Below are positions 2,901 to 48,500 of a stretch of 64,000 nt of DNA, one piece after another. Positions within the stretch are counted from its first letter, which is position 1. Each line of letters opens with the position of its first letter. The notes under the pieces are model-generated. The model did not search any database. It was not told the origin of the DNA and saw only the letters and a list, made by a program, of their open reading frames with translations. Made by a program: the position numbers and the translations under genes. The stretch comes from Phoenix dactylifera (lineage: Eukaryota; Streptophyta; Magnoliopsida; Arecales; Arecaceae), in contig NW_024067677.1 of NCBI RefSeq assembly GCF_009389715.1, forward strand, positions 496,001-560,000, in the 5' to 3' direction.

Positions 2901-3265
2901 CGTACTTATACAGGACTAAGAAACCCAAATAATATCTTCCGGCTAGCCAGTTTGGATAAGGTCCTAGATTATTACAAATGGTATCAGAGCAAACTCGGCT
3001 TATAGGCTATGTGGACTAGGGAACACTGCAGCATGGGTTAATGAATGCTGACCATGAGCCTATCATGGTGCATGTGATTAAATTTGAATGGATTTGAGCC
3101 TTTAACTTGACGAATACGTCAGGGCTTAAATGAGGAGAGTATGTGAGGATACATGCGGGCGTGTGTTTAGTCTCACATCGGTTATTTGCGGAGAAGATTT
3201 TGGGTACTTATACAAGACTAAGGAACGTAAATAATACCTTTCAGCTAGCTATTTTGGATGAGGTG
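2901..3265 (+). mobile_element. TRIM-like miniature LTR element, copy 1 (fossil)
   Basis: A right-hand terminal repeat starts near 3142 with TGTGAGGATAC, preceded by a purine-rich TGAGGAGAG tract, and carries the TAGTCTCACATCGG-type motif common in plant TRIMs. Its second half (ACTTATAC to AGCTAGC) is repeated at 2901-2970. Between them, at 2979-2990, is TGGTATCAGAGC, the classic primer-binding site complementary to initiator tRNA-Met. The interior is about 150 bases and has no coding capacity. Terminal repeats are incomplete and diverged, so the copy is old. A second copy in the opposite orientation is at 26637-27050. Confidence 0.65.
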
Positions 3266-3910
3266 AGTCTCAAAGCTCATATAACTCTTCGCAGGAACAA
3301 GGTGGTGGATGGTCGAATTCTAATAGATCTAATAGGGTAAAGAAGAGAAAAAGAAAAATCCATAATCTACCGGTTGCCAATGTCACGCCCCAAACCCAAC
3401 ACTTCGGTCCGAAACGCAACATAGTCATACATTCCCTAAGGCAATGCCCTAGAGAATATGCTAGGCCTGAGATGAACAAAATTCACACAATACTAACAAA
3501 GTTGGTCCAATTAATCATTCTCTTTACCTGTGATCTCAACCATAGCCAAGTACAGTATAACCTGTAACTCTGAAAAAGAGAAAGATAGAAGGGGTCGTAA
3601 GCTTGACGACCTAGTAAGAATCCCAAACTGCTACACCATAAGTAATAAAAAAATAATCAATTAACAATACCAGATGAATATTGTATCAATACTTGAAAAG
3701 CTCAAAAATAATATGCACTTAAGTTCTCATTATCATCTTTACAAAGAAGTGTATATATATATTCTCAAATGTAATAAATTGTTCAACAATAGTTTCTTAT
3801 GTCATGTTATCTATTTCTCATTAACTTGATTTCTAGGTTTCTCATTAATTAACTTCCGGTTTTGCACTAACCAAGATCATAACTCAGTCCAAGACTGATA
3901 CTATATTATG

Positions 3911-4077
3911 TTATAGCCTGTAGCAGCTATCCAACCCAAGTTATAGCCCGTGGTGGCCATTCGACCTACGTTATAGCCCATGGGACCTCTCCGGCCCACG
4001 TTATAGCCCATGGAAGCCCTTCGACCCATGTTCTAGCCCATGGGGCCTCTCCAGCCCACGTTATAGCCCATGGGAGC
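3911..4077. repeat. 30-bp tandem repeat inside the putative solo LTR
   Basis: Five full units and a partial sixth begin at 3911, 3941, 3971, 4001, 4031 and 4061, each starting with TTATAGCCC or a one-base variant. No role is suggested. Confidence 0.9.
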
Positions 4078-4277
4078 TTACCATGCATAATCTCATGGAG
4101 GCTTCTAATATGTCAACCCATAGGCGCTATGACAAGATTAGTCCAAACCATATCTTATTCATTTGATTTACCGGTTATTCCTGTCAAATCAATTATCACA
4201 TATATAATGAATTTCTCTCACTTCAAGGTATCTTTGCTAATATAGTTATGTTCTCAATATCTAATACATATGATAAC

Positions 4278-5159
4278 TGTTGCTGGAAATTGGACCCGGG
4301 GGCGATCGTTGGCTGAGGAGGGGGAGCGGCTGGTGGACACAGGTGGGTGGCGATCCGTCGGCGAGCGGCGTCCTCCGTCGGGGTGCCTGCAGAAAAATCG
4401 GTGGCCGGGTCTTCCAGCGCCGGCCCTCCGATGCTTAAGTCAGAGGGGGAAAACTTCATTTAAAGGAGAGAGGAGGGAGGTAAGTTTTTCTCTGTTTTCT
4501 TGTGTCCAACCCTCCTCGGGAAGCAAGGGTCCCCTTTTTATAGGGGGGTCGGATTACCTGTGATGTGATAGGGCGAGACCGTCGTACGACTTAGCACGTT
4601 GCTTGGTCTGGCACACGATCAGGCGAATCATTGCATTGATGTCGGAGGTGAGGCCGTCGTACGACTTGAGCTGGCGCGCGATCGGGTGAATCATTGCATT
4701 GATGTCGGAGGAGAGGCCGGGGTCAGAGAATTGTCACAGCCGACAGGACCCTGCTGAGCCGATTTGCCGTGGAGAGCTGAGGATCCGTAGATAATAGGAG
4801 CCATGCGCATTAATTGTTGAGTGAGTCGGAGATGTGCATTAATTGTTGAGTGAGTCGGAGATGTGCATTAATTGTTGAGTGAGTCGGAGATGTGCATTAA
4901 TTGTTGAGTGAACTGTGGGTTTGCAGAGATCATGCGTAATAAATGCTGGGGCGGTGGCAGGGTATGGCCCCCGGCCAGACTTCGGAAGGGTACAGCCATG
5001 GTAAGTGGGCGACGAGGGCGGACCTCCGAGGTCGGGAGCTCTCCGGGTCGGACGTTCCGAGGTCGGACGCCGACCTCGGCCGTCTAAGGTCGGCCATCAT
5101 GCGGTCTTCTGGTGACGAGGTTTCTATGTTCTGGGGGGGAAAACCACATTCCCCCAACA
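4278..5159 (-). repeat. 3' LTR of the gag-only element
   Basis: 882-bp terminal repeat, TG...CA ended in either reading. It is near-identical to 11023-11891. Units of 29 bp begin at 4805, 4834, 4863 and 4892 and the same array recurs at 11550 onward in the partner LTR, so the array predates this insertion. Confidence 0.92.
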
Positions 5160-5848
5160 CTACCCCCCGACTTCCGAGTTCGAGCCGCTTGCGAGCTCGG
5201 ACGCGGGAAGTAGAAGTCGTTATTATGGCTATCGAGGCCGGGGGGATTGGATCATGTCTGCTTCCTTACGCGTCTTGAAGCCTTTATAACGGAGGCTGCG
5301 CCCTTTGGCCCTTCGAGGTCGTTTTATATGGCGAACTTATGATGGGGTCTGCGTCCTTACGCATCCCGAAGCACTTACAATGGAGATTGCGCCCTTTGGC
5401 TCTCCGAGATCACTTCATACGGCGAACTCATGATGGGGTCCCTGGGCCCGATGGGGCGGCGCCTCGATCTTGTGGTTGAGGCGCCCTTCTTAAACAGGTA
5501 CGCCGTTTCGTTCTTCAAAGTGGACACGTGGTATGATCCGAGGTCGGACGCTTGTGATCTCGTATTGGCCGAATAGAGATTTGGGAGGCTGAGATTACAT
5601 CAGTGCTCCATGCGTCTCTGGGGCTTATTAAATGAAGGGAGCGGGGGTGGCGTTCGCTCGTCTTTTGAGGCGGTCCGGCCTTGCGGACCCATGATGAGGC
5701 CGTGAGATCCGATGGGACGGCGCCTCGATTTTGTACCCGACACATTGGTCCGGAATGAATGCGGTGCTTCAGCTTCCGAGGCCGACACGTGGCGCAATCC
5801 AGACGGGGGGTGGAAACCGAACCCGCCGATCTGGGCCGTTAGGGGGGC

Positions 5849-5857
5849 CTATATAAA
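5849..5857 (+). promoter_or_regulatory. TATA box for the antisense gene
   Basis: CTATATAAA sits about 220 bases upstream of the plus-strand coding region that starts near 6075, in a GC-rich context. This suggests the antisense gene is transcribed from its own internal promoter rather than from an LTR. Inferred from sequence alone. Confidence 0.55.
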
Positions 5858-6074
5858 CCCCCCAGCCCTAAGAGGAGCCTTATCTGGTTGCCCCTTCTTT
5901 TTTGCCGTTTCCATCTTCATTGTCTTTCTCACCAAAAACCTTACCGGCGGCGCTCAGAGCGATTTCCGGCGACTCTCCCGTAGGTCCCTTTCTTTTGTCA
6001 GTTAGGGGGTTTCTCCCTCTTCTTCCCTTTTTCTCTTCCTCTCTTTTGTCTCTGTACTTTTTCTTAGAAATGGG

Positions 6075-8175
6075 TTTCAGTCCGGAGGAAGTCGGATCTA
6101 TCTGTCGGGGGAGGAGCTGGAGTTGATCCGCTTCCGGTTCTTTTTCCAGCCCGGATTTCGTCTTGAAACTGCGGGGCCGGAGGACAGGGTGATACGGCCG
6201 CCCCCAGGTCGGATCGCGGTTCACCGCGAGACGCTCTGGGCCGGTCTGCGGTTCCCCCTGCATGAGTTCGTGAACAACTTGCTGGTGGAATATCAGCTCG
6301 TCCCAGCACAGCTTGCTCCGAACTCGTGGAGGACCATAGTCGGGTTCTTATCCCTTGGTCTCGCACATGGGATCCCGACTTTGGTGAGTATTTTCCGCCG
6401 GTGTTTTTTGTTAAAGAAAAACCCGGCGGATGGAGGGTGGCTATACTTCGCTTTTCGGGGCGGTATGTCACTCTTCCAGGGTGCCCCTTCCTCTATTCAT
6501 GAGTGGAAGGGGAAATTTTTCTTTCTTGCGTCCGAGGTGCCGTGGGGGTTTAACCCGAGGTGGGGGCACCCTCGACTGAAAGCTCTCAACAGACTCTCCG
6601 AGCCCTCGGGGAGGGAGCTGAGGGTCTTGGACGCCCTGCGGGGCCTCGGGAAGGGGTTCAACCTGACCGAGCTCCTAAAGGAGGACGCCCTGGTGAGCGT
6701 TGGCCTAAGTTCGGCGTGTCCCGAGGGTAAGAGTAGTTGTATGGTTTCGTCTTTACTTTATCTGTTTCTTCTTCTTTTTTTAACGTTGGTCTGACACTTA
6801 GAAAAATTTTTCCTGTTTCAGATATTCCTCACATGCCGACCAGCAACACATCTCTCTTCTCCCGATTGAAGAGGCGGGAGGCCGAGGCCGGCGGGGCTAT
6901 TCCCCAGCCTCGGAAAAAATCGAGGTCGGCCGACGCTTCTACCTCGGCCGGGGCGAGTGGCCCGGAGGCGGGGGCCTCCACAGCCGCTCAAGGGCGGGAG
7001 ATAGTTGCCGGGGACGCAGCCCCGATCATTACGAGGGTGTCGGATTCGGCGGCCCCTCTCCGCCCCGCTCCTATTTCCGAGCGGAGGGGGCGAGCGACCG
7101 TCGAGTCGCAACGCTCGGAGCCCGAGCAAAGCAGGGGCTCCGAGGTTCCAAGCTCGGGCGGGTCGAGCTCTTCACGGGGCCCGGGGGGAGAATCGACCGC
7201 GGGGACCCTGGCTCTTCACGACGCCGATGTCGCGCGGGCGGTATTTCGGCGCGCAATGCTTCCAGCGGACCGGGCCGAGTTCCGCAACTTGTCCCTGGAA
7301 GCAATCGTCGACAGTGCCTATTGCAACACTGTTCGAGTAAGTTATCCCCTTGATTCTCCTTCAGCTATTAATGTGTACGAATAATTTACTCACTGCCTTC
7401 TTCCTTTTCTTTCTTGCAGCGTGTTCATGAAGTCGACACCTTGGTGTTCATCGCCCAAGGATGTCAAGAAGAAACTCGGCGCCTCGGCCGGCAACTGGAG
7501 CCGGCCAAGAAGAGGATTGCCGAGCTGGAGGCCGCGCTGGCCGAGGCCGAGGCGCGGAGGGAGGCGACTGAGGCCGGGAGACTGGCCATCGTTGAGGAGC
7601 TCGAGGAAGAAAGAGCTGCTCATTCGTTGGCCAAGTCGGCCTTGCGTGCTTCGGAGGCGCGCTTGGCGGAGGCCCAATCCAAGGTGGCGGGCCTCAAGTA
7701 TGAGGGCGGAGTCCTGCGCCTTAAGATCAGGCAACTCGAGGCCCGGGAGAAGAAGGCACTCGAGCGGGCTGAGCATGCCGTGGACTTCTTCAAGGACTCA
7801 GACGAGTTCCGCGACATGCTCGAGGAAGAGACCGTGGATGGGTTCCTCCGCGGTTTCGACAACTTCCGGAGGCAGATGACTCGGTTCTGCCCCCAGCTCG
7901 ACCTCTCGGGAATTCGCCCAAGGATGAGGTTAGGCGCCGACTCCGACGACGACGTTCCCGCCGCCCTTGCGTCCGAGGGGGAGTCCGCCGAGGCCGAGGC
8001 GGATGCAGCCGCGCCAGCGGAGATGGAGGCTCCCCGCGGGGGAGTTACCGAGGGCGCTCCCGAGGCGCCTGCCGAGGTCCCCGCCATAAGCTCCGAGCCC
8101 GCGCTTATCGAAGGCTCTCAGGTCATCACCATAGATGACCCTGGGAGTGACGCCGGCGACACTGCTGCCCCATAG
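6075..8175 (+). CDS. antisense accessory gene of the LTR element, putative gypsy-type transposon family
   Basis: A plus-strand gene lies opposite to the element that carries it. The first part (about 6.08-6.72 kb) has the family hallmarks GEELELIRFRF, RPPPGR, LAPNSWRTI and FQGAPSSIH of the plant family often named putative gypsy type transposon (Pfam Transposase_28). Short candidate introns near 6.73-6.82 kb and 7.34-7.42 kb have GT and AG borders. The middle part is a low-complexity Ser/Ala/Glu linker. The last part (7420-8175) is a long coiled coil with repeated AELEAALAEAEA-like heptads and an acidic tail. AATAAA-type signals follow at about 8.27-8.40 kb. Similar antisense ORFs are known in Tat-lineage elements; their role is unknown. 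Treated as a fossil gene; intactness not claimed. Confidence 0.7.
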
Positions 8176-9239
8176 GACTTAGATGTTTTTCTTTTCCTTT
8201 TTGTAAATGAGGTCGGCTTCCAAATTTGTTGGACTGCCGACCTCCGATCTTGTACTTAGCCTTTTGGCACTTTATTAATGAAAAAGTTTTCTTTTGTCAT
8301 TCCATGTTTAGTTTTCCCTTTTACTCTTTCTAATTGTAAATAGGGCTGGTGCTTTGGCCTCGAACTTGTGTTCCAGTCTTTAGGCTACTTTTCAATAAAG
8401 ACTTGTTTCTCAGCTGTGTTTTGTTTTCCTTTCGCCCGACTTGTTTGAATGTCTAAGTCCCAATTACGCTGGTTGGGGGGCTCTGAACCCAGATTCTAAA
8501 AAGTTTCGCCAAATCTTGGGGCTCGGATTTGAAGCTCGCAGAGGTCACCCAATTCGATTTTTGGATTTCTGAGGTACCGGGCTCGGACCTCGGGCCCCAA
8601 GAGGGGCGGTGTCGGATTCGCATAGGTCGCTATTAAGGTATTTGACCGAGTCTTTGAGTTTGGCGTTTTAGAGCGTAGGTCCATAGAAATGTTAGGGCTG
8701 TTCCCTGAAGGAGAGCGTGAGCCAGTGGTCAAACCATCACAAAGGCTTTCATGATTATTGCCCTCGGACTTTACCGAGGTTCCGGCGAGCGGGGTCGGAA
8801 CCAGTAGAGGGTACCCCAGCCTTTTTAAGCTTAATCGGCACATCCGGGGTCGGGGTTATCTTTACGGGTCGAGATCGACGTCTCGACGTATGGGGGCCGA
8901 ATCGGGCCCTTACGAGGGTTTACATGAGTTGTCATGAGAGTTATCGGTAGATAGAGCATGCATGAGGTCAGCGGGACCTTGGTCTTAAATCGACTTGTAG
9001 GGGCAACCCGGCCTCGGCCGGGATAAGGTCCCGATCTCAATCGGAATTTCGCTGGCAATACGTAGATAAAAATAACAAGGCGGGCATCAAGCGGGATGTA
9101 CCTTTTGCACCTCCGAAGTTGCGCACCTTGTAGCGGAGTGGGTTGCCTTGTTTCCTCGCCGACTTTTGGAGTCACTTTTTGGCTCGGGGTCGAGAGAACT
9201 TGGGCTTCTTATGAACCCGATGGCACCCCCCGAAGTCGA
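8176..9239. other. non-coding interior of the gag-only element
   Basis: About 1.1 kb between the antisense gene and the minisatellite. No pol-type motif was found in either strand. Two AATAAA-like sites follow the antisense gene in its sense direction. Confidence 0.5.
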
Positions 9240-9925
9240 GGGGGTTTGGGAATGCTCCATCAATCTGCGACGCTTTCCGAGGTCGAGGGAGTTTGGGACT
9301 CTACGGTCGACCCTCGGGGCATCCCGACCTTAGTCGAGGAATCGTGCGCCAGGTCGATGGGTCTGGGAATGCTCTATCGACCTGCGACGCTTCCCGAGGT
9401 CGAGGGAGTTTGGGACTCTACGGTCGACCCTCGGGGCATCCCGACCTTAGTCGAGGAATCGTGCGCCAGGTCGATGGGTCTGGGAATGCTCTATCGACCT
9501 GCGACGCTTTCCGAGGTCGAGGGAGTTTGGGACTCTACGGTCGACCCTCGGGGCATCCCGACCTTAGTCGAGGAATCGTGCGCCAGGTCGATGGGTCTGG
9601 GAACGCTCTATCGACCTGCGACGCTTCCCGACGTCGAGGGAGTTTGGGACTCTACGGTCGACCCTCGGGGCATCCCGACCTTAGTCGAGGAATCGTGCAC
9701 CAGGTCGATGGGTCTAGGAACGCTCTATCGACCTGCGACGCTTCCCGAGGTCGAGGGAGTTTGGGACTCTACGGTCGACCCTCGGGGCATCCCGACATTA
9801 GTCGAGGTCTCAAATATGGGGCCAAGGGAGGTTGGGCTCATCGTCGACTGGGTGGCGCTTTCCGAGGTCGAGGGAGTTTGAGACTCTACGGTCGACGCTC
9901 GGGGCATCCCGACCTTAATCGGGGT
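9240..9925. repeat. 117-bp minisatellite inside the LTR element
   Basis: The marker GTTTGGGACT (GTTTGAGACT in the last copy) recurs at 9291, 9408, 9525, 9642, 9759 and 9876, exactly 117 bases apart. Copies differ by a few substitutions. Because 117 is divisible by three, frames stay open and 39-residue protein repeats appear in more than one frame; I take these as by-products, not genes. Confidence 0.93.
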
Positions 9926-9951
9926 ATCTGAGGATCACAAACGACCCAACA

Positions 9952-10989
9952 TTAGAAGAGATAATCATAATCATTGAAAAGAGACGAATCATTATAAAGA
10001 GGAGACTGAATCCATGTTCCTGATTGCCTAGGTCCCCTTGGGGTTTCATTGGTAATACATCCGTAGATTCTCGGAGTTCCAGCTTCGCGGACTTCCCACG
10101 TGGCGGCGGTAAAGCGGTCCAGATACTCCTTGAGGGATTCCCCCTCCTTCTGCTTGATATCCAGGAGGGAGTCCGACGTCCGTCGCTGGCGTCGGCTGGC
10201 AGCAAAGTTGGTAGCGAACTGCCTGCCGAGTTGCTCGAAAGAGGATACCGTGCTCGGCTTCAGCCCGGAAAACCAAAGCCGAGCTATCCCTCGAAGGGTC
10301 GCCGGGAAGGCCTTACAAAGCACGGCCTCCGAGGATCCTTGCAGTGCCATGAGAGCTCGGTAGCTCTCCAAATGGTCGAGGGGGTCGGTAACTCCGCTGT
10401 AGGGCTCCACTTGAGGCATCTTGAACCTCGTGGGGACCGGCTCGTCCTCGATTTGGCGGGAGAAGGGGGACTTGGTGGTAAATTCAAAATCCCCCTCCTG
10501 TTTTGCCTTCTTGCTGTGGAGCGCTTCGATCTGGCGCTCTAAGTGCTCGACTTTCCTGTCGAGCTCCCCAACCCGAGGAATCGTCACCGTGGTTTGCTCC
10601 AGCTCATGGTGGTCCGGGGCCGACTCGGCTTCAGAGGGTTGGGGTCTTCTGTTGAGACCTCCCCCCGGCAGCTCTCTCTGGGGGGAAGCCCGCCCTTCGT
10701 TGTTGGCCCTGGAAGAGCCATGAAGATTCTGGCCTTGGAGAATCGGGCCGTTGGGAGGAAACTCCGGCAGGATCTGGGCCTGAGGGGAGAGCGTAGGCAA
10801 GGCCTCCTCGCGCCGCAGACCTTGGACGGTAGCGGCCAAGGCCTGAACTTGCTGCACCAGGGCATTGAATTGCTCCGGCTGGACCTGAGGAACCGGGTCA
10901 ACCGGAGTAGGTGAATTCTGGACGGAGTGTCCAGGTCTCTGTGGGGGACGCCGGGAAATGTTGGAGGCTCCCTTACTTCTCAACTTCAT
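9952..10989 (-). CDS. Gag of the LTR element (fossil)
   Basis: The likely start is the ATG at 10989 (MKLRSKG), just inside the LTR. Order: Pro/Gln-rich N terminus, a short coiled-coil segment (VGELDRKVEHLERQIEAL), then the retrotransposon Gag core (PF03732 type) with FKMPQVEPYSG, DHLESY, ARLWFSGL and SFEQLGRQFATNF. This core forms the particle shell in autonomous relatives. No zinc knuckle or protease follows before the frame ends, in line with a non-autonomous element. Confidence 0.75.
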   Translation of the reverse strand: MKLRSKGASNISRRPPQRPGHSVQNSPTPVDPVPQVQPEQFNALVQQVQALAATVQGLRREEALPTLSPQAQILPEFPPNGPILQGQNLHGSSRANNEGRASPQRELPGGGLNRRPQPSEAESAPDHHELEQTTVTIPRVGELDRKVEHLERQIEALHSKKAKQEGDFEFTTKSPFSRQIEDEPVPTRFKMPQVEPYSGVTDPLDHLESYRALMALQGSSEAVLCKAFPATLRGIARLWFSGLKPSTVSSFEQLGRQFATNFAASRRQRRTSDSLLDIKQKEGESLKEYLDRFTAATWEVREAGTPRIYGCITNETPRGPRQSGTWIQSPLYNDSSLFNDYDYLF

Positions 10990-11022
10990 GATCGCGACTC
11001 GGGCCCTTCCTCTAGCGCCAAC

Positions 11023-11891
11023 TGTTGCTGGAAATTGGACCCGGGGGCGATCGTCGGCTGAGGAGGGGAAGCGGCTGGTGGACACAGGTGGGTGGCGATC
11101 CGTCGGCGAGCGGCGTCCTCCGTCGGGGTGCCTGCAGAAAAGCCGGTGGCCGGGTCTTCCGGCGCCGGCCCTCCGATGCTTAAGTCAGAGGGGGGAAACT
11201 TCGTTTAAAGGAGAGAGGAGGGAGGTAAGTTTTTCTCCATTTTCTTGTGTCCAACCCCCCTCGGGAAGCAAGGGTCCCCTTTTTATAGGGGGGTCGGATT
11301 ACCTGTGATGTGATAGGGCGAGACCGTCGTACGACTTAGCACGTTGCTTGGTCTGGCACACGATCAGGCGAATCATTGCATTGATGTCGGAGGTGAGGCC
11401 GTCGTACGACTTGAGCTGGCGCGCGATCGGGTGAATCATTGCATTGATGTTGGAGGAGAGGCCGGGGTCAGAGAATTGTCACGGCCGACAGGACCCTGTT
11501 GAGCCGATTTGCCGTGGAGAGCTGAGGATCCATAGATAATAGGAGCCATGCGCATTAATTATTGAGTGAGTCGGAGATGTGCATTAATTGTTGAGTGAGT
11601 CGGAGATGTGCATTAATTGTTGAGTGAGTCGGAGATGTGCATTAATTGTTGAGTGAACTGTGGGTTTGCAGAGATCATGCGTAATAAATGCTGGGGCGGT
11701 GGCAGGGTATGGCCCCCGGCCAGACTTCGGAAGGGTACAGCCATGGTAGGTGGGCGACGAGGGCGGACCTCCGAGGTCGGGAGCTCTCCGGGTCGGACGT
11801 TCCGAGGTCGGACGCCGACCTCGGCCGTCATGCGGTCTTCTGGTGACGAGGTTTCTATGTTCTGGGGAGGGAAAACCACATTCCCGCAACA
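11023..11891 (-). repeat. 5' LTR of the gag-only element
   Basis: 869-bp terminal repeat matching 4278-5159. On the minus strand it is the promoter-bearing copy ahead of gag. It has the 29-bp array at 11550-11657 and is followed on the right by the ATAAC target duplication. Confidence 0.92.
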
Positions 11892-13390
11892 ATAACTACA
11901 TAAATGTACTAAAAACCGATACAAATCTCACGATATAAATCTAGCGATACAAACCAATAAACATAAACATATATATATGTATATAATGCTACTAATCCAA
12001 CCTAACGCAACCTAACGCAGCTATAATGTTACTAATCCAAACCTAACATATCCAGTTAATTTGATATCAATATAACACCAACTTATCCCCTATCAATCAC
12101 TCGCCATATTTACGAATCAATTATTCAGTAATTACCCAATTTTAAATTACCCATATTCTTTATTCTCCTTTAATTAAAAATTAAATATAAATAAATGGTT
12201 AGGGTCCTACCTCAATTTAGAAATTAGCGTATAAGATCTCGTTGGGCTTCTTTCTGCCCAGATGATTGCAACCCATACAAAACTAGAGTTGACTATGAAA
12301 ATAGGTTCGTATAGGAAGATATACAAGACTAACTAGATGACAACGCCCAATTGTTCGAATCGATTAGCATAACACAACTCAACATATATTCAATCAAGAA
12401 AAAAAGTAATAAATCAGGGATTATCAATTATGGGTCTAATAGTACCTGATAACAATCGAGTGCAGGTATAGGGTCGACTATGTAACAGCATCCGATGATT
12501 TGGGTCGGTCCACTCGGGCCAATCAAGCCAGTCAAATCATGAAACGAGAATTAGACCATGGTATAGGTGACATAATGGGAATCATGATAATATATTCCAA
12601 CGATACTCAGCGATGGTTAGGCTAAAGCTAGCGCAACAGGTGGTCACAGCGACACTAGTCCAGGACCCTCGACTAGGGTCAACTCGGATCCACAAAGAAA
12701 ATATCTGGGGCCCTCCTGTTGGGTCCATAGAATCAAGAGAAGAGAGATAAACAAAGAAAGATAAGTCAAAAGAGAAAGGAGAGAGGAGAGAGAAAGAAGA
12801 GAGAGAAGACTTTTTTTTTGCTTCTCAAAATAGGGGAGAGCCCATCTCTCCTTTTTCTCTTTAGAACAGAGAGCGTGACAGCCATGGTGGCCAGCCCCAA
12901 TGACGGTGGCCACGGACAGCCCGTTAATCGCTACCTCGCTAGCGATGGTGGCCGAACGACACAAAAAAGGAGGGAAGAAGATCATGAAAAAGGTGGAGGA
13001 TGATCCATGGCAACTTAGCCTAAACCATGACTAACTCCCTAACAGACAGCCACATGTTCTCAGGGGTCCTAAATGATAGGAAAACCCAACCGAATCCGGC
13101 AGCTGGTGGTGGCGAAACTCAGAAGAAGGACATCAAAACAAGGCACCTTTATTTCGAAAGTTATTTCAGCAATTTGCTAGCTCAAATCAATGTGAACGAA
13201 AGCCAAGATGACGGAGAAGAAGGAGAAGAGGATGCAAGATTCTTACCTCGGTCCGGCGAAGCTTCTAGCAGAACTTTCCGGTGAGGAATCGAGGAAGAAA
13301 GCCCATAAGCACACAAATCTGGGTTAGCATAACCTACTGGCTAAATGTTAATTTTCCCTAATATCCCAAATCAACGATTGTTTCACATTA

Positions 13391-13592
13391 ATTTTATTAA
13401 ATATTAAAATATATTAGGTGTACGGTAGCAAAATTCTAATTATTTTTTGTTACTTTCTTTACCCTCGTAGGCTCTATCGGAGCAACACCAATTTTATTAG
13501 ATATTAAAATATATTATAGGTGTATGGCAGCAAAATTCTAATTATTTTTTGTTACCTTCTTTACCCTTATAGGCTCTATTAGAGCAACACCA
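13391..13592. repeat. 100-bp tandem duplication
   Basis: Two adjoining copies (13391-13490 and 13491-13592) both run from ATTTTATTA to AGCAACACCA with about eight differences. Confidence 0.9.
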
Positions 13593-22529: not shown

Positions 22530-25500
22530 TCACCAGAAATCTCTACAAGAGCAAACACCATCTTTGTAATGGTGGAAACGACTCCTATCTCTCAAAACAA
22601 TCTCTCTCTCATACACCTTCGAAACCAACTTCATGAAAGTGTGGCAATCTTCACAGACCCTAAGATTCTTTGCTATGCGGATGCAAAAGCCTCTGCTTGA
22701 GTTCATCAGCCCAAAAGAAAGAGCCAACTTCTCACTGTGCCAGAGAACAGCTCCTTTCTTCTCTTCCTCTTCCAAATCAACCAACACACTTCCTATATCA
22801 GGCGAATAACCTACAAGCTCTAATTCTCTCACAACCTCCTCCAACTTTCCATAGATCTCACTAGATCTCGGATGGGACTCATCGCCCATCAAAAATTCAT
22901 GTACTTTGCCATCCAATTCAATCCAGCTACAACCCCTTTCCTTCGACACTCCTTTACATTTCATCAATGTCCTCACCTGCCTAACATCATCCCACCTGCT
23001 AGCCTTGGCATAGATATTTGATAGAAGAACATAAGCCCCATCATGACTTGGGTCTAGCTCCAAAAGCCTCTTGGCTGCCAATTCTCCGAGTTCAACATCC
23101 CCGTGCATCTTGCATGCTCCCAACAGTGAACCCCACACTACCACATTCGGGGTGAAAGGCATTGACTCTATGAGCTCAAATGCTTCTTGCAGCAGTCTGG
23201 CACGTCCAAGAAGATCCACCATGCAGCCGTAGTGCTCGTGCTTGGGCTCCATGTTGTGATCCTGAATCATGGAATTGAATATCCTCCGACCGTCTTCAAC
23301 CAAGCCCGTGTGACTACAAGCATAAAGCAGGCCCACAAATGTCACCCTGTTAGGCTCAACCCCCTCAGCTTTCATCTGATCAAATAGTGCTAGTGCAGAT
23401 CTTCCATCCCCATGCACTGCACATCCAGTGATCATGCTTGTCCAAGTGATAACATTCCTACTAGGCATCTCTTCAAAGATCTTTTGTGCATCTGCCAAGC
23501 TCCCACATTTACAGTACATATCAATGAGAGCATTCTTTATTGACAGAATACCAGAAAACCCATTCTTGTCCACAAAGATATGGACCCATTTGGCTTGATC
23601 CAGAGCACCCAGATGAGCACAAGCTGAGATAACACTCAACATGGTGATCCTGTCAGGTCTCACACCTGAGAGTTGCATTTCATTGAACAACTTGATTGCT
23701 TCATTAGGCTGGTCACTCTCAGCATACCCTGAGATCATTGCACTCCAAGAGACTAGGTCCCTCTCAGGCATCTGATCAAAGATGGAGTGAGCAATCTCAA
23801 TCTTGCCAATCTTGGCATACCCAAAGACCATGGCGGTTGATGACACTAGATTCTTAGGGTATATGCTGTCATACAATTTTTGGGCATTATCCATCGACTT
23901 GCAACTGGAGTACATGTTGATAAGGGCACTTTGTAAGTGGGAATCCATTGAGATGTTGGATGCAACAATGTACGAGTGAATTGCCTGGCCGGCCATCAGA
24001 TTTCCAGTGCGCCCACATGCTGAAAGGACTGTGGCCAGGATCACCTGATCAGGTACCACATTGCAGCTCTTCATGTCCTCAAACAGCTGCAGAGCTTCAC
24101 CAAAACAGCCAGTCTGACAATAACTGCCATTGGAGTTAGAGGGCTATGAAGGAAGTTTGGTGATTGAATTGTCTATGGTGAGCAAAGAATAAATTTCTAT
24201 TATTACATAGATCACTTTCTGAAGTACTAACATTCATCACATACACATGGCCTATCTAACACGATAGCATTTGATGACCTCACCAATTACGTATTGTCTA
24301 AGAGCAGGGAGTGTTTGCTGGATGGGAGGCAAGTCCATCACATTATTAGCAGGAATAGTTATAGCTTATGATCCAGCAACTACTTAGCCAGAGATGGAGT
24401 GAACTTTCAATAAATCCTATATCCCCAAATAATGGATCTCCTCGAGAACAAGTTATTCCTCATTATAACAAAAATAACCATCTTTACTTCCCCAGTTCAA
24501 CCTGGATTATATTTATCCAGGGGTAAAATTTTGTACATAATAACTGCTGATATTAGCAGTCATAATAGAATACAACAGAAAAAGAAAACAATGTTATTTG
24601 CTGCCGTACAAAATAATTCTTCCAGCTAGCACAGGGACATGAATTTAGAAAATATATTAGTTTTATTTGATGAACAGTGACCATCTAAAGTTGCTCTTAG
24701 CTCCATTCTAAATAGGGATGGCAATGCTTAACCGTTTAATCTATTTCAACTCGTTGTAGATCAGGCTACATTATCTGTTTAATAAAATAGCCAGGTTTGG
24801 GTCTGAATTTTTGACATGTTTAATAAACAGATCAGATTCAGGTTGATAGATTTTTGATTTATTTTGTATTTGATCCGACCCAGACCCAATTGCCACCCCT
24901 AATTCTAAAACATCTGCCACAATGGAGATAACCGCTAAAAACATTGTTCCAGAATTCCATTTACTATATCTCAAGGGCAGGGATTTATTTACACCCAAGG
25001 CCAAGGGTGTCAAACTTAAATAAAAAGTAAAGGAAGAGAGTGTTATCTATAATTTTAATGAGGTTGCATGAGAAAATATCCGTTCATATTGAAAAGCGGG
25101 AAGCTTTATCTATTAGGGGGTTATACTTAAAAAGGTACTGGCTCCGAGATATCTAAAACTTACCCGTCGAGCATGACGCCCCAGGCGACGAGGTCCCGCT
25201 GGGACATCCGGTCGAACACCCCGCGTGCGTCGGCGACCCGCCCGCACGCTGCGTACGAGCGAACCAACGCAGTTTGGACGAAAGGGTCGGAGTCGAACCC
25301 CAGCTTGGCCACGAGCCCGTGGGCCTCTCTGGCCACCCAATCGTCTGCGCCGGCCCTGGCGGCGACTCTCAGAACCGTGGGGAAGCTGAAACGGTCGAGG
25401 GGGAGGCCGGCCCGCCGAATGCGGTCGTAGGCGGCGAGCGCCCGGCGATAGTCGCCGGCGGAGGCGCGGGAGAGGACGCGGAGAGCGCGGTCGCAGAGGC

Positions 25501-25744
25501 GGGCGTCGGGTTGGGGAGTGTGGAGGAAGACGGAGAGGGCGTAGTCGAGGGAGGAGGGGGAGGAGAGGGGGAGGGAGAGGAGTTTGGAGAGGAAGGGGGC
25601 GGAGAGGTCGAGGCCGGAGCGGAGGAGATGGGCGTGGATTTGTTTGAGGTGGGAGAGGGTAGTGGCTGTGAGAAGGAGGTGGTTGGGTCTCGGGGGTGAG
25701 AGGAAAGAGGTCAGTATGGGTTGCGGAGGGGCGACGGCCTCCAT
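22530..25744 (-). CDS. DYW-class pentatricopeptide repeat protein (At4g14820-like)
   Basis: Exons 25744-25164 and 24123-22530 join as GG|T (Gly) and give 724 residues. I chose the ATG at 25744 (MEAVAPPQP); an in-frame ATG lies further upstream. Typical PLS repeats run through most of the protein (DLVSWSAMISGYAE, NALIDMYCKCGSL, RNVITWTSMITG), followed by E and E+ motifs and a DYW deaminase domain with HSE, CEDCH and a terminal CSCRDFW. The HSE glutamate and CxxC cysteines needed for zinc binding are present; the last triplet is DFW instead of DYW. PLS-DYW proteins edit C to U in plastid or mitochondrial RNA; the target here is unknown. Length and sequence closely follow Arabidopsis At4g14820 (722 residues, from memory). 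The 1,040-bp intron is uncommon in this mostly intronless family. Confidence 0.95.
24713..24901. mobile_element. hAT-type MITE inside the PPR intron
   Basis: 189 bp with perfect 8-bp duplication ATTCTAAA (24705-24712 and 24902-24909). Inverted ends TAGGGATGGCAAT and TAGGGGTGGCAAT match at 12 of 13 positions. This TIR is typical of plant hAT miniature elements. Confidence 0.9.
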
Positions 25745-26636
25745 TTTCTGTTCTTTTCTTCTCCACAGCCTTAAAGGAGACTTATCTTGCAGTAAAGAGA
25801 GATCGGCTATACTGTAAAACCTCAATGGAAAGCAATGTGCGCACCAACCGCCGGCAATCTTATAGAAGGGAACATCAGCAGTCTTTTGATCTGAAAGCTA
25901 TTTAATAATTGCGAAGGAATTTCCCTCGAAACTAAAGCAGCACTAGTACTTCTGAAAATAAAATTAGCTCTACCAAAAGCACCCTTCTGCCTACGGCCCA
26001 CCGCTCGACGTATGCCCTCTGATCGGAAAAGAAAAAGTTGTCATTAGCACTCCATGAGTTATTGTATTTTAATTTTATTAGATATATTTGTACACGTACT
26101 GTATGAAGCACCCGCATTCAGCAAAAAAAAAAAGAAGCACCCTTCTGCAGCTACTAGAGCACCACTAGCCCTTATATGATAATAAAACCAACTCCACCAA
26201 ATGCACCTTTTTCTGTACACTACTATAAAACTTTGATCTTGGGGGAGCATAGGATGATGGCTCTTAAGAAAAATAAGTTTTGCAGAATCTGTTGGAAAAG
26301 AGCCATAGGTTGCTCCTTCTGCCAATGGACCCACAGAAATAGTAAGTTAGAGAAATTTATGAGTTTGAGTAGAAGCTTTCAAAAAAAATAATTGAGCACT
26401 CAATCTCATGCCTTAGAAAATATATTCATTCCTGGCCAACTAAATATAATAAGCAATGAAACAGATCAAAACTGCTTTAGATTTTTCCATCATTGGTAGT
26501 AGATCTCTAATCCTTGCTAGCTTTGATGAGAAGATTTTTAGACACATGCAATCATAACTGAGAAGTAGGTTGTAGACAGTGCACTTGCCTCAATAGGAAA
26601 GAAGAGGTGTAACTAGTTACCCCTCCTGAAAAAACT
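25745..26636. other. upstream region of the PPR gene
   Basis: Probably holds the PPR promoter. Two related blocks (about 25.93-25.99 kb and 26.15-26.21 kb, both with AGCAC..ACTAG and CCACCAAA/CTACCAAA) look like pieces of a dispersed repeat. No gene seen. Confidence 0.4.
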
Positions 26637-38407: not shown

Positions 38408-41400
38408 TCATACAATACGTGTACGAATACATCCAAGAAAGTCAAAATACAACAACTCACGGAGAGCCTGTGGAAGCTCCCCCTCCCCTACCCAAAGAGT
38501 GTACCCTGAGTGGTGGGCCGCATGGGCCGCCACCCAGTCGGCCGCCCCATTAGCTTCCCTAAATACATGCTTAGCCAGAAAGGCCCTCCCATCTCCCATC
38601 ATCATCCCTATATCACGGATCAAGGGATGGTCTGTACCATCAGCCGTCACCCCCCTCTGGATCCACCCGATGACCGTGGCCGAGTCGCCCTCCAAGATGA
38701 TCGAACTAGCCTGCAGGACCATCCTCGCATGGCGCACGCCCGCCCAGGCAGCTCGGAGCTCTGCCTCCGGAACTGATATGTCAAACAGTTGGCAGCCGCC
38801 TGCTGCCACTACCCTGGAATGCGGGTCTCGTATGATAAAGCCTGCACCGCCCCGCGTGCCACCATCCAGCACCGACCCATCAAAATTAACCTTGAGGAAG
38901 CTTGGGGGTGGGGGCTCCCAGGTGAAAAACACCATCTGGTGAGCTGCCGAAACAGAAGGGGGGCCCCAGGTGTTCTGAGCTATCAAAGGCCTATCTGAAG
39001 AGTGGGTGGGCATGATCTCTGAAGCCTGTACACGAGCACGCTCCGCAGCAAATCGTGGTGACACCCTGCGGTCACTGAGAGTACGAGCGTTCCTTGCCAG
39101 CCAAATCTGATGCGCTGTGCAAGTCGCTCTAATGGCCTCCTGACTCGTCCTCGTGCTGGCTAGCCACTGCCGTATCGTGTGAAGAAACTGTAGCCTCTCA
39201 CTCCGGGCCTCCTGCGGGACCCCGGCCCACTGCCATGTCAGCCTCGCCCATATACACTGGAAGAGCACATGGTCCACTGACTCCGCGGCTCCGCATGTCC
39301 CACACTCTGCGGGGATCCCCCATCTACGCCTGCTCAGTGCTGCTCTCGTCGGAAGGCGGTCCCAGAATACCTTCCATAAGAAGAGGGCTGCCCGCGGGTG
39401 GAGACCGTACCTCCAGATCCAAGCACAATCCGGCCCCCTCTCCTGCTCTGGCTGGATGACACGGGTGAGGTCTCCCAGCCTGACCCTGGCCCGGCTCGAA
39501 GTACCCCATACCCTAACATCCGATCCTGCACATCCTGGTAACGGGATGGACCGGATCCTCGTTGCTAGATGTACCCCAAATAACTGTCGAAGTCTAGCAT
39601 CATCCCACTCTGCTCCACCTGCTGCCAAAAGGTCGCAAACCCGTAGTCCCTCTGCTGCCTCTACGCTAACCATGGCCGGCCAACTCCTCAATGGGAGGGT
39701 GTCCACCTACGGCTCACTGGTCACATCAATGCTCCTGCCATCACCTATCAGCCATCTGGTGTTCGCTGATGCAGTCAGCAGATACCTCCCAATCTCGCGC
39801 CACATGAAAGAGGCTCGGCGACCCCGCCATGCTCCCTCTAGGCCCCCACGGCCATATCTGGCTGCCATCACCTGACTCCAAAGGCTGTGTGGCTCAAGCA
39901 GAAACCGAACCGCATGCCGAGCGATGAGAGCCTCACGCCTCCCCATCAAGGACTGCACCCCCAGGCCACCCTCACTAGTAGGACGACAAACCTGCTCCCA
40001 AGCCACCAAATGCACGCCATGGCCCCCACCGTGTGATCCCCACAAGAAGCTCCGAAGAAGACGCTCGATCCTCAAGAGAGTCGTCTTTGGCATCACAGTG
40101 TTAGCCATGAGGTACAATGGTATGGAACCCAATACTGATCTAATCAAAGTCAATCTCCCCATTATGGATAGGGAAGACGCTTTCCATCCCTCAAGCCTGC
40201 TCTGGACCCGCTGTACCAGGCTCGAGCACTCTGCTACTCGTGGCCGCCGGCCACTGATGGGAACTCCCGGATCTGGTATCTGCAGTATCCCCCGGATCTC
40301 CTGTCGGACTCTAATATCCATGCTGGGACTGAAAGTGATAGCTGACTTCAGGAAATTCACTCTCTGGCCAGACGCCATGCAGTAATCCGTCACCACCCTG
40401 CGAAGAACCCGTGCCTCCGTCACTCGTGCCCTGGTCAGAAGAAGGCAATCATCAGCGAAAAATAAATGTGAGAGAGGTTGAGCCCCCGGTGCTGGACTGT
40501 ACGCCTCCAGCTCCCGGTCGGCGCAAACTCTCTGTAGAGTTCGTGATAAGATATCAGCACAAATAATAAACAGGTATGGGGATAAAGGACATCCCTGTCG
40601 CAATCCCAAAGTGGACTCGAAGAATAGTGTGGGTGTGCCATTGACCAAGATAGAAAACTTTGGTCCCCGGATGCACCCCATGACCCATCCAATCCATTGC
40701 CTGTGGAAACCGTACGCCTCCAGTGCTCGCCCGAGAAAGCTCCACCTGATCCTATCGTAAGCCCTCTCCATATCCAGCTTGATGGCCATCAAGCTGCGCC
40801 TCTTCGATGCTCTTTGAAGATCCCACATCATTTCCTGAGCCAACAAAATATTGTGTGAGATGTTTCTACCAGCTACAAATGCCCCCTGCTCATGGCTGAT
40901 GATACCAGGCAAAAGGGGCTTCATTCTGCCCACCATAATTTTTGCCACAACCTTATACAAGGTTGTGCACAAGCTAATGGGCCTGAAGTGACTGGGCTCA
41001 ACCGCATCCTGACGCTTTGGTATAAGCGTGATGAATGTGGCCTTCTAGTCCTCAGGCATAGCAGCCTGGGCAAAAAAACACTGGATAGCCTCCACCACAC
41101 CTCGATGGATAATGCCCCAGTACTGCCGAAAGAAGAAGCGAGGAAAACCGTCGGGCCCTGGGGCCTTGTCGGCAGCCAGCGCCCAAACTGCCTCATGTAC
41201 CTCCTGTGCTAACACCGGTCGAATCAAGGATGCCCTCTCAACATCACCAATACCCATGTCCACCCTCAGGGGGCGGTCACCGTCACTGGCCTCATCATCC
41301 TCCGTCCATCTGGCTCGGAAAAATCAAAGAGGGTCTGCCGAACCGTCTGCTCGCCCTCTACCCGATGGCCAGTCCCATCTCGCAAAGAATGAATCAAGCT

Positions 41401-42528
41401 CCGCGGCCGCCGAATAATCGTCGACCGATGGAAGAACCTAGTGTTGCGATCACCCTCACTCACCCATTGCACACGGGATTTCTGTCGCCAGAAAATCTAG
41501 TGCTGCCGTAGCAACGAATGATGAGTCGCTAGCAACCCCCGAAAGTCGGACATATCGTCCTCCAGGAGCGCCCCTCCTAGGTCTTCCTTCCTCTGCAACT
41601 CAGCAATCGAGGACTCAACCCCTTCCAATCGCCGAAATATATTGCCCACGACCTCACGATTCCAACGGCGTAAACGCCTTTTAGTCAATTCCAATCGGCG
41701 CGAGACCGCCTGCATGGCATCGCCACGTACCGGGGTACGCCACGCGTCGCGGACTACATCCCACGACTGGGGGTATGATAGCCAAACCTTCTCAAAATAG
41801 AAGGGACTGTGATGGACGTGTGCCGATGAGGTGGATAGAAGCAGGGGGCAATGGTCAGAGGCAATCCGGGGAAGGTGACTGACCTGACAGGTAGGGAAAC
41901 GGAGGATCCAATCTGGGGATGCAAAGGCCCTATCTAGGCGCTCCCAGACCCTAGCACTGCCTAACTGATTATTGCACCAAGTAAACTTAGGTCCTGAAAA
42001 ACCAAGGTCTACCAGGCCATTCCGCAATACAAAGTCATGAAACTCCCTCCTGTCCATTCTGTCAGTGAAGGCAGCACCACCCCGCTTCTCATTCTCACCC
42101 TGGATACAATTAAAGTCACCGACCACGACCGTCGGGATGCCCTGGGTGATGAGGTTAGTGATCTCCTGCCAGAGGACTCTCCGAACCCTGTGATCCGTAC
42201 TCGCATACACACCACAGAGTACCCACGGAGCGGCTCCTGGTTTCGATACTACCATGACTACCTGTTGGGAGCAATTGTGGAAAACATCTATTGTCGCCAC
42301 CCCTCGCCTCCATAAGACCAAAATGCCTCCCGACAACCCCCGAGAGTCAACTGCATAGGTAGCCCACTCCCTATCCAAACGACGCCTCACACGACTAAGC
42401 CCCTCACCAGATAATCGAGTCTCGCATAGAAAACAGATCTCCAGACAGTGGATCTGTACTAATCGCTTAAAGGAGGACATGAAGGACGGCGTGGCCGCCC
42501 CCCTACAATTCCAAGCTAAAATCATCAT
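38408..42528 (-). pseudogene. LINE ORF2 (endonuclease, reverse transcriptase, RNase H), broken
   Basis: Endonuclease 42528 to about 41.75 kb: ILAWNCRGA start, ETRLSG, VGDFNC, SDHCPLLL. Reverse transcriptase about 41.2-39.7 kb: DKAPGPDGFP, LISxC-type CTTLYKVVAKIM, KLDMERAYDRI, RQGCPLSPYLF and FFADD at the catalytic site. Finger CGTCGAAESVDHVLFQC near 39.28 kb. RNase H 38.9-38.45 kb: NFDGSVLDGG, AELRAAW, LEGDSATV, REANGAADW. Breaks: in-frame TAG at 41497-41499, 41045-41047 and 39707-39709, and one frameshift near 41.32 kb by a run of five A (plus strand). The last two TAGs sit where related LINEs have Trp. Confidence 0.9.
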
Positions 42529-44573
42529 GGATCACAGTCCACATAGTCAGCCTCAGACCCATCCTCACCTAGGGTCGTGGGGCCGGCCTCAGGCTCGAAC
42601 CCCCGGCTGCCCCGCTCCTCCTCCCCCCCGTATGTAGAAAGAGCAGCACTCATGATTGCTGCCGTGACGCGCTGCACAACAGTGGGTAGGACTGTATCCC
42701 CTCCCGGTACTGAAGGCTCAACCTCCATGTAAGGAGCCGGTCGGTCCCACCCCTCACCCCTGCCTAAGGCAGCATCATCCATTTCGCCCAAGGCCGGGGG
42801 CGGAGGGCCAAACCGGAAGACTGGGATCGTCTCCCTATCAGCCTGCCGGTCTAGCTCGACCTGGGCCCCTAGACCCAAGTTTGACTGAAGCTAAGTGCCC
42901 GCCGCACAAGGGACTGCCCGCAGCTCCCCCGTGGCCCGGGCCTGAGTGCCCTGTACTCGCGGCCATCCTCAGCCCCCACAGCCGAGTCGGCCTGGCCCAG
43001 CAGCTCCCGGACCCGCTCCCCCGCCGCTGGGGAGGCCCGCAGGCCTGGGGCTGATCGAGCACGCAGCGTGCCCCGCGCTGCGGACGCGTCCCGAATCGCG
43101 CCCGCTGGCCCACGGCCCCGACGTCCCATCCCCTGGGCCCGGCCGCGGGCCAGCATCGCGTCAGCCCGCTGGCCCACCGCTGGAAGCGCGCGGGCCAGCT
43201 GGCCCGCCCTTCCGGGCCTCCGTGCGGGCCCGGGTCCACCGGTGGCCTGGGCCTCTTCTGAGCTTGGGCCCGGGCCGCAGCTGGTCCACCAGGCCCGGGC
43301 TCGGCCCGCGTCAGGGTAATTCCTGACTCGGCCCCGAGTCAGCTCGCAGAGGGGTAACCCCCCGCTCGGTTCCGACTCGGCTGGCTCGAGCAGGTCATCC
43401 CCAAGCTCTCCGGCCGGATCAACCTGAAACAGGCCGAGAGGAAGAGCCAGGTGTAGCCCTTCCCCCTCCGCTGCCAGCGGCGATCGGCGACGCGCTACCT
43501 TAGCTGGCTTTTGCCAGCCGGCCGTGTCCGCCGGAGACACCGATGCAGGCGGTGATGTCGACACCACCGAATTCGACGGCCGCCTCGAGGACGACCCAGC
43601 CCCAAGATCGGGGCCGGTAGTCTCCCTCGGCCGCGGCGGCAAGTCCCCCTGAGGGATTTTCTGCCACGTTGCCACCATCCAGGGCCGTAGACAGGCCCCT
43701 GGACCTCCTCCCCACCGCCCGAGAACAGCAGATCGGGGTTGCCCCCCGCCTCCGTTGCCACCGGAGGCACCTCCCTGTGTGCATCGGCTGCCGTCGGAAA
43801 GCGGCAGGCCGCTTCCACGTGCCCCATCCGCCCACAGCTAGGGCAAAGGACCGGGATGTTCTCGAAGACGAAGGGCTGCCACCGCACCTTCGTCTTCCCC
43901 TGTATCAGAACTCCCGGCCGTAGCGGTTCAGTGGTGTCAATCGCCACTTTAACCCAGGCGAAACCCATCGCCGCCTGCTGCTCGGTGACCCCATCCACCG
44001 CCACTGGCTAGCCCGCGCGAGCCGCGATGTGGAGGATGGTCGACGTCGACCAGTACTCCGGCGGTAGTCGCGGTAGCCGGAGCCACACCATCGCCCTTTT
44101 CACTGTGCCATCCCCAGGCTCAAAGTCTGGCACCCACGGGCTCATGGCGAGGAGTTGCCCCGCCACCACCCAAGGTCCCTCACTGAGAGCCCGATCCCGG
44201 TCCTCCGTCGACCGGAACTCAGGGCGAGGTAGTCGTCCGCTAGCGGGACGGCCACCACATCTTTGAGCTTCGCGCGGGTGGCCACATCCTTGGCCACCCA
44301 TTCCGCCGGAATCCGGCGGCCAAAGCTGCGGACAATCACCGCCCGCCCCTCCCACACCTGTCGAGCCGCCTCTATCGGCTCTTCCGGCGGCCGCAAAACA
44401 TCCGGAAAGCGGCGGCTCAGGCGATCCACCTCCTCGGCCATGGGCTAGTGGGTAATCCATGGCCCCGGCTTCGACCAGGCAGCAGGGCGCACCCCACGAC
44501 CCGACGGCTTACCGTAGCCTCTCGCCGCTTCCTCCGTCGCCTTCGCCGCCGGCTGCTTCCCTTTTCGATCCAT
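42525..44573 (-). pseudogene. LINE ORF1 (DUF4283 plus zinc knuckle), broken
   Basis: Probable start ATG at 44573 (MDRKGKQPAAK). The DUF4283-type RNA-binding region follows (RIPAEWVAKDV, then ALSEGPWVVAGQLLAMSPW), then a CCHC knuckle CPSCGRMGHVEAAC near 43.83 kb and a Pro/Arg-rich C terminus. Breaks: in-frame TAG at 44445-44447, a frameshift near 44.22 kb, a stop at 44008-44010 and a frameshift near 43.68 kb. The TGA end overlaps the ATG of ORF2 (42525-42528). In L1 elements ORF1 coats the transcript. Confidence 0.8.
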
Positions 44574-45526: not shown

Positions 45527-48500
45527 TGTAGTAAAATAATAGATGGAGAGAAGGAAGAACTTATCAGTTGAGGCGTGATTTCACTGTCTTTAAGAATAGA
45601 TCGCACCCCTCGGAGAATGAATCTCGGTGTAGCAGGTAATGGCGGCCTATCCTCCAGGATACAACAACTGGATCACTCCAAGCGCACACTCGCAGATGCA
45701 GTGATCTTGTTGAACAGCCCAGAAGCGCTCAGAAAAACAAAACAGAGGAGAGTATTCTCTCGGGAACATAGAAAAGAGAGAGAGAGAGGCTTTCGGAAAC
45801 CAGAGAGAGGATTTTGATTAGATATCTCTATCGGATCTGATAGGGTTTAAAAAGAAAGGAAGAGGCGTATTTAAAAGACACATCGTTTTAACGGCAAAAA
45901 GAAACCTGACTCAAGCCCACACCCCGGGGGGGTCCCCTCCTGCGTGTGATAATCGAGCGCGACGCGCCCGATTAAACGTTTCCAGATCGGATTCGCCAAT
46001 TTTGGCTTGGACCTCCATTGGGCTTATGCGCGCGTGGGCTACTTTCTTTCTTTGCTTCACCAAGTTAAAAGGTTGAATACTATATAAAGATCTTTTGAGT
46101 TTTATTCCTTTCCAATGTGGGACTAAAGAAAGTACACTAGACAAAAACACAAAAGACAAAGAAGGGCAGACTCGGAATTTTGAAATATTCCAACAATCCC
46201 CCACATATTTTAAAATTCAATAATAAGTTAACGAGCGCGAGAGTTCAATGCATCAAATTGGTGTCTTTGAGACTATGAACCATTTTTAGGACTAGTAAGT
46301 ATGACTTACATAACTTTTGGTGAAACATGAAATTTCTATGAACCAAAAGTCCTTTATGTAAATCAGTGACTCATAGCCCACATTGACCTCTCAAGTTCTG
46401 GGCTTGTTCTAAACGGGTTGGTGCAAATAGGCCATGCACCTTATCTGGATATTCATGAGTGCTTTAGAGAACTGCCTAATTCTCATAGGAAGCGGCCCCA
46501 CTCCCACACCCATATAGGTGGATCCATCAAGTGTATACTGCAGGTAGACACACCATCCTAAAGGACTATGGTATCCATTAAGAGCTTTACCTCATCCTTA
46601 TCTACTGCAGTTTGCACTATCTACACCATAGGGATGGATTTTCAAAATTAAATATGATAGTGTACTCACAGTCAACTAGCGACTTGTTATTACCCATATG
46701 AACATGCTTCATGGGATCTCCAATCACACATGTTGAGTTTCTGTCGTTATTGACTTTGATATAGGCATTAGTCCCATCCCCCTCGATGTTTCACTCACTA
46801 GTTTTCTACCTAGTGGTTTTGTCAAAGGATCGGCCAAATTCAACTCTGACTTTACAAACTCAAGAGATATAATCCCATCATCAAGCAGCTGCCTTACAAT
46901 ATTATGTCTCAACCTTATGTGTCTATTCTTTCCATTATAAACTTTATTCTTAGCTCGATATATAGCAGCTTGGTTATCACAAAGAATAGACACAGAAGGT
47001 GTTGGTTTATTCCATAATGGAATATCTTCCACAAGATTTCTAAGCCATTCAGCTTCAGAACCTGCCTTTTCTAAGGCAATAAACTCGGACTCCATCGTAG
47101 ACCGAGCGATGCATGTTTGCTTGGATGATTTCCAAGATACTGCACCCCCACCAAGAGTAAAGATATATCCACTTGTGGATTTCATCTCATCTGAATCAGA
47201 GATCCAATTTGCATCACTATACCCTTCTAGTACAGCTGGAAATCTACGATATAACAAACCATAATTAATGGTTCCTTTCAAGTACCTTAGTACTCTATGA
47301 ACAGCACTCCAATGATCCTTACTAGGATTATGAGTATATCTACTTAATCTTCCTACTGCATAAGCAATATCAGGACGAGTGCGAGCAATGATGCGAGCAT
47401 ATTCTATTTGTAAAATACCATTTTCTTTATTTTTCCTTAAATGTATACTAGCATCATATGGAGTAGATACGGGTTTACTATCATAATGCTCAAATTTTCT
47501 TAAAATTTTCTCAATATAGTGTTCTTGTGATAGCATAAGTCCATTAGAACTTCTTGTTATTTTAATCCCAAGAATTACATCTGCTTCACCCATATCTTTC
47601 ATATCAAAATTTGAAGCTAAAAATTTCTTAGTATCTATAACTATATTCAAATCAGTTCCCATTATAAGCATATCATCAACATACAAACATATGATCACAA
47701 CAACATTATTAACAACCTTACTATAAACACACTTATCAGCCTCATTAATTAGAAAGCCATTAGATACCAATACTTTATCAAATTTTTCATGCCATTGTTT
47801 AGGTGCTTGTTTTAATCCATATAAGGATTTTACTAATTTACAAACTTTGTGCTCATTACCAGGAACAACACAACCTTCAGGTTGTTCCATGTAATTTCTT
47901 CATCTAATTCTCTATTCAAGAATGCAGTTTTTACATCCATTTGGTGAATTACTAAATTATGAATGGATGCTAATGCAATGAGTACTCTAATAGATGAAAT
48001 TCTAGAAACTGGTGCAAAGGTGTCAAAATAATCAATATCTTTTCTTTGTGAGTATCCTTTTGCTACTAATCTTGCTTTAAACTTATCAATTGAATTATCT
48101 GGTTTTAACTTTCTTTTAAAAATCCACTTACAACCAATTGATTTAGCACCTGGAGGCAAATCAACTAAGGTCCATATATGATTAGACATAATAGACTCTA
48201 TTTCATTATTAATAGCCTCCTTCCAAAAAGGTGTATCAGCTGAAGTTATTGCTTCTTTATAAGTTTGAGGTTCATTATCAACAAGAAAAGTGTAAAAATC
48301 ATTTCTAAAATTTTTCTCTTTTCTAGTTCTTTTACTTCTTCTTAAATCAATTTCATAATTTTCATGTGCCTCCTTTTCTTGTTTATTATGAGGCAGAGAG
48401 TCAATTTTTTCTTTACCTAGTTTCATAGGAAAGATATGTTCAAAGAAATCAGCATTTTTAGATTCTACTATAGTGTTGGGTTCCATAATATTAGATTCAC

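Follow-up and report, generated by a model that had tools for sequence, protein, structure and literature searches.

Does the persistence of an antisense gene in an LTR retrotransposon without pol mean that the gene's product, or its transcription, matters to the element? The question arises from the initial annotation of a 64-kb stretch of DNA (the window, here meaning the whole stretch analysed), which described the interval 4278-11891 as an element that had kept gag and both LTRs within a perfect ATAAC duplication, that lacked pol, and that nonetheless carried an oppositely oriented gene. This interval is one LTR retrotransposon of 7,614 bp in minus-strand orientation, such that its 5' LTR is the right-hand one (Table 1). 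The two LTRs align with 851 matches and 17 mismatches over 868 aligned bases, 16 of the 17 mismatches being transitions, and differ by two indel events, one of 14 bp and one of 1 bp (six of the 21 gap columns in the alignment came from an over-extended left end and were set aside). This alignment and the flanking junctions (ATAAC/TGTTG...CAACA/ATAAC) bear out the two LTRs and the perfect duplication, and a primer-binding-site-like stretch and a polypurine-rich tract were recognized by position and composition only. LTR divergence (K2P = 0.020) corresponds to ~0.8 million years at a substitution rate of 1.3e-8. Each LTR also contains a 29-bp unit present in ~3.8 repeats (4803-4911 and 11548-11656).

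Table 1. Features of the element and its flanks, in window coordinates
Feature	Position	Strand	Remarks
Target-site duplication, left copy	4273-4277	.	ATAAC
3' LTR	4278-5159	-	882 bp
TATA-like TATAAAAA in 3' LTR	starts 4542	-	
Polypurine-rich tract	5160-5175	-	adjoins 3' LTR
TATATAAA, candidate core promoter of antisense gene	5850-5857	+	
Sole ATG between TATA box and domain	6070-6072	+	not in the domain's frame; own frame ends after 18 codons
Antisense exon 1	6072-6726	+	frame of domain, upstream limit not set; Transposase_28 at 6222-6416
Predicted intron 1	6727-6821	+	GTAAGA...TTTCAG, 95 bp, 49% T
Antisense exon 2	6822-7336	+	
Predicted intron 2	7337-7419	+	GTAAGT...TTGCAG, 83 bp
Antisense exon 3	7420-8175	+	includes stop codon; coiled-coil-like, Pfam matches all below cut-offs
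AATAAA, candidate poly(A) signal of antisense gene	8394-8399	+	
Tandem array	9242-9928	.	117-bp unit, 5.9 copies, 91% matches
Truncated gag frame	9952-10989	-	345 aa plus stop
Primer-binding-site-like stretch	11003-11020	-	begins TGG, 2 bases inside 5' LTR; position only
5' LTR	11023-11891	-	869 bp
TATA-like TATAAAAA in 5' LTR	starts 11287	-	
Target-site duplication, right copy	11892-11896	.	ATAAC

The sense strand encodes part of gag. An open minus-strand frame spanning 9952-11184 contains the gag ATG at 10989, and the gag frame matches PF03732 above the cut-off (E 4.1e-12) over profile positions 2-78 of 97, the match ending near 10087. The ~44 codons between this point and the stop codon match no Pfam family above its cut-off, and none of the three minus-strand frames of the internal region shows a CX2CX4HX4C zinc knuckle. 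With the domain cut at position 78 and no zinc knuckle found, the claim that gag was kept is not borne out. The absence of pol is: a Pfam scan covering each of the 22 minus-strand ORFs that reach 80 aa or more and overlap 5160-11022 (E limits of 10, 1, 0.01 and 0.01) detected no pol domain, and this result supports the proposal that enzymes are needed in trans. The gag frame was the sole match to a retrotransposon protein among these 22 ORFs; the ORF at 9915-10259 matched DUF7511 under that family's cut-off (E 0.016).

The Pfam Transposase_28 search that had been suggested for the plus-strand translation was positive. PF04195 was matched over profile positions 3-68 of 69 (E 2.7e-13, 50.4 bits against a cut-off of 26.2), and all six conserved TRP28 positions given in the accessible text of a published survey (G21, P25, L34, P46, N47 and F55; PMC11963269) are present with the published spacing, confirming an oppositely oriented gene with domain hallmarks. 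The candidate introns also stand, as two T-rich GT-AG introns are predicted to link three open frames in phase, giving 641 codons plus a stop. The best Pfam match of exon 3, to the coiled-coil family PF13851, is sub-threshold (25.6 bits against 32.3), and an AlphaFold model of exon 1 alone had a mean pLDDT of 34.7. The long open frames of this region exceed chance moderately: the longest observed are 267, 262 and 215 codons, and the longest simulated frame reached 262 codons or more in 21 of 500 runs, the third-longest 210 or more in 0 of 500.

The TATA box proposed for the gene was found as TATATAAA, which occurs once compared with a mean of 0.015 in 200 simulations of the internal region, for a pattern picked after it had been seen. 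Other TATAWA sites in the element lie at 9993 on the plus strand and, on the minus strand, at 5288, 5328 and 5855 and once in each LTR. Runs of G and C flank both the antisense TATA box (5844-5865) and the LTR TATA boxes (minus strand, from 11287 and 4542). Of the downstream poly(A) signals that had been annotated, one candidate AATAAA was recovered; as it is the sole AWTAAA match within 8100-8600, the plural was not. Two further features of the plus strand were considered and rejected. The leader at 5880-6069 is free of ATG, as it also was in 666 of 1000 simulations at leader composition and in 156 of 1000 at element composition, and we do not count it as evidence. A 271-aa frame over the tandem array was rejected as a gene, since a 117-bp unit, being 39 codons long, preserves open frames, and since none of the frame's three Pfam matches reaches its cut-off. 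The array leaves two long plus-strand frames open in all (271 and 238 aa), neither convincing as a gene.

The start of the antisense gene appears to be disrupted in this copy. The sole ATG upstream of the domain is out of frame with it (Table 1), and the first ATG in the Transposase_28 frame, at 6465, lies downstream of the domain. Either the frame has been broken near the start, or the gene starts elsewhere; an undetected 5' exon, translation from a non-AUG codon or a misassembly would likewise account for the pattern. Given the two indels that separate the LTRs, a single post-insertion indel in a gene of 2 kb would be nothing out of the ordinary. At ~1% substitution per site, ~0.3 premature stops are expected in the 641 spliced codons if all substitutions are transitions (33 sites). 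What the open exons therefore show is a largely intact gene in the parent; they do not show its maintenance in this copy and cannot separate selection from youth.

What kind of element would carry such a gene? In a survey of 617 assemblies, Vicient 2025 described antisense coding between pol and the 3' LTR in every Retand cluster, antisense TRP28 (Transposase_28) ORFs in 97% of recently active clusters and tandem arrays in roughly half; some standard domain was missing from 10 of 63 clusters, array units measured 8-100 bp and LTRs 315-1,194 bp (PMC11963269, accessible text). RT-less copies lay outside the sampling of this survey, because it recruited elements by their intact RT. Neumann 2019 found Transposase_28 in 23% of Retand elements (PMC6317226, accessible text), so the domain is less universal than the figure of 97% of clusters suggests. 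The antisense Transposase_28 ORF present here upstream of the 3' LTR is frequent in Retand and not strictly defining. The order seen here (LTR, start of gag, array, antisense TRP28 gene, LTR) is that of a Retand element minus the end of gag and pol. On this basis, we consider it very probable that the element derives from a Retand-type plant LTR retrotransposon (Tat clade, Ty3/gypsy) through loss of pol and truncation of gag, with the antisense gene kept by descent. Against this assignment, the Retand lineage is defined by reverse-transcriptase phylogeny and no RT was found in this element; the 117-bp array unit also exceeds the published range. The deletion itself we infer from the expected order of parts in a single copy.

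For such a derivative, genomic RNA would be made from the LTR promoter, and a deletion running from gag through pol would leave the antisense gene behind passively. Because this gene is a common part of the region between pol and the 3' LTR in Retand-type elements, it needs no special retention. It does not follow, as the initial annotation had proposed, that retention shows the antisense gene to matter to the element: the gene can be a passive leftover, and this copy has both a truncated gag and an antisense start that does not share the domain's frame. The antisense gene is thus no unusual acquisition, and the element is an ordinary dependent or damaged copy, not a new kind of element.

The likelihoods that we attach to the next two explanations split a single question inside the Retand-derivative reading. 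The first, to which we give about an even chance, is that an autonomous element suffered damage in a single insertion, the end of gag and pol having been deleted in place or lost by template switching, and that the antisense gene has no role here. If the deletion came during or after insertion, enzymes and Gag would have been provided by the element's own intact parent, and no helper family is needed. Ordinary decay would account for the truncated gag, the two LTR indels and the apparent single break in the antisense frame. However, the longest word shared by 10060-10110 and 9915-9990 is 4 bases, and no microhomology is seen at the junction, the exact position of which is not fixed. Because gag is cut inside its domain, we lean slightly toward a deletion with or after insertion, and hence one damaged copy, over an earlier deletion.

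The second explanation is an established, Zeon-like non-autonomous family, many copies of which share the deletion and spread by means of a Cinful-like partner, with the antisense product or RNA kept to help or regulate transposition; we hold it as a possible but rather doubtful account. If the deletion preceded insertion, the enzymes and complete Gag would have been supplied by an intact relative. The LTRs and perfect target duplication show that an element of some form inserted by retrotransposition, and all three predicted antisense exons (exon 1 from 6072 onward) are free of internal stops and join in phase. There is also precedent in the lineage for a gag-coding partner without polyprotein domains: Cinful-1 is listed within Retand (PMC6317226), and Cinful codes polyprotein domains while Zeon codes GAG (PMC8547701, accessible text). 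The size of Zeon, apparently 7,459 bp with 698-bp LTRs by our reading of a table row (PMC3091746), is near the 7,614 bp of the element. Against a family of this kind, a gag cut inside its domain means that even Gag would have to be borrowed, the one upstream ATG of this copy's antisense gene is not in the domain's frame, an element so young would have open frames in any case, and the account draws on one copy only.

It is improbable, in our estimation, that the element represents a non-autonomous Retand family without pol and usable gag that keeps the antisense Transposase_28 unit for a product or RNA acting in trans on both the helper and itself; Vicient 2025 could not have seen such an RT-less family, because it started from intact RT domains. 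Least credible by far is a foreign origin of the plus-strand gene, as a host gene or a second transposon that the element captured or that landed within it. Such an origin would fit the separate TATA box, poly(A) signal and predicted introns of the gene, but antisense PF04195 at this position is a hallmark of the lineage, the accessible text of Vicient 2025 reports no TRP28 similarity outside TEs (PMC11963269), and 3000-13500 contains 0 inverted-repeat pairs of at least 25 bp.

Self-comparison of the window revealed no second copy of the element beyond its own repeats. Searches for relatives of antisense exon 1 and of gag gave 64 and 67 pattern matches, respectively, in bacterial and archaeal contigs and 3 and 4 in viral contigs, none of which was confirmed by tblastn; because neither is a plant collection, these negatives do not bear on copy number. 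In the wider region, 28 of the 49 listed ORFs were scanned against Pfam. The GC-rich stretch at 38-46 kb was considered as a partner element and rejected, the ORFs scanned there being those of a LINE; this LINE-type element (38408-44007, minus strand) has endonuclease, RVT_1, zf-RVT and RVT_3 matches and a CCHC knuckle below cut-off. A fragment of a Copia-type reverse transcriptase (RVT_2) lies at 46727-47899 on the minus strand. A pentatricopeptide-repeat gene occupies 22530-25897, also on the minus strand, with a DYW deaminase domain in the ORF at 22530-24143 and a PPR match only, below cut-off, in the ORF at 25160-25897. The minus-strand ORF at 16714-17295 matches a short PNRC motif (PF15365) at 31.1 bits, above the cut-off of 21, and tandemly duplicated units of 245 and 127 bp occur at 55369-56035. 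We infer a plant host from the families found, including the DYW-type PPR gene.

Among the matches listed in our literature search, in which subscription journals were thinly covered, no title or abstract described a Retand element that combines a truncated gag with an antisense Transposase_28 gene. We would expect such copies in any annotated Retand-rich genome. Taken alone, the element is one more pol-less Retand-type copy. Its use would be as a natural deletion experiment: pol-less copies sharing one deletion would allow decay of the antisense gene to be compared with that of gag and of neutral sequence.

With the elements of the Retand lineage (Silene Retand, rice RIRE2, maize Grande and Cinful), the element described here shares an antisense Transposase_28 gene upstream of the 3' LTR, a tandem array in that region (here between gag and the antisense gene), a 5-bp target duplication and an LTR length within the reported range. 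It differs from them in having no pol, a truncated gag and no lineage-defining RT, and in an array unit that, at 117 bp, exceeds the published range. It resembles TR-GAG elements in having two LTRs and sense coding that is only gag-related. The TR-GAG definition, however, allows no sense domain other than GAG, accompanied or not by AP, and its accessible text does not mention an antisense gene (PMC6022998), whereas the element here carries such a gene and its PF03732 match passes the cut-off yet is incomplete, the search for a zinc knuckle having been negative. Zeon, related to the Retand-lineage Cinful, is similar in its reported GAG-only coding and apparently in total and LTR size; Zeon and other published gag-only elements keep the GAG domain, whereas gag is cut inside the domain here, in an element known from one copy. 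A further parallel is gene23 of maize Grande, which is transcribed in antisense from its own upstream promoter and encodes a nuclear protein, and for which Vicient and Casacuberta 2020 consider both a protein role and a dsRNA role (PMC7264820, accessible text). Whereas transcription and nuclear localization have been reported for gene23, and the promoter, splicing and product of the gene described here are predictions, both appear to be antisense accessory genes of the region between pol and the 3' LTR, each with a promoter of its own.
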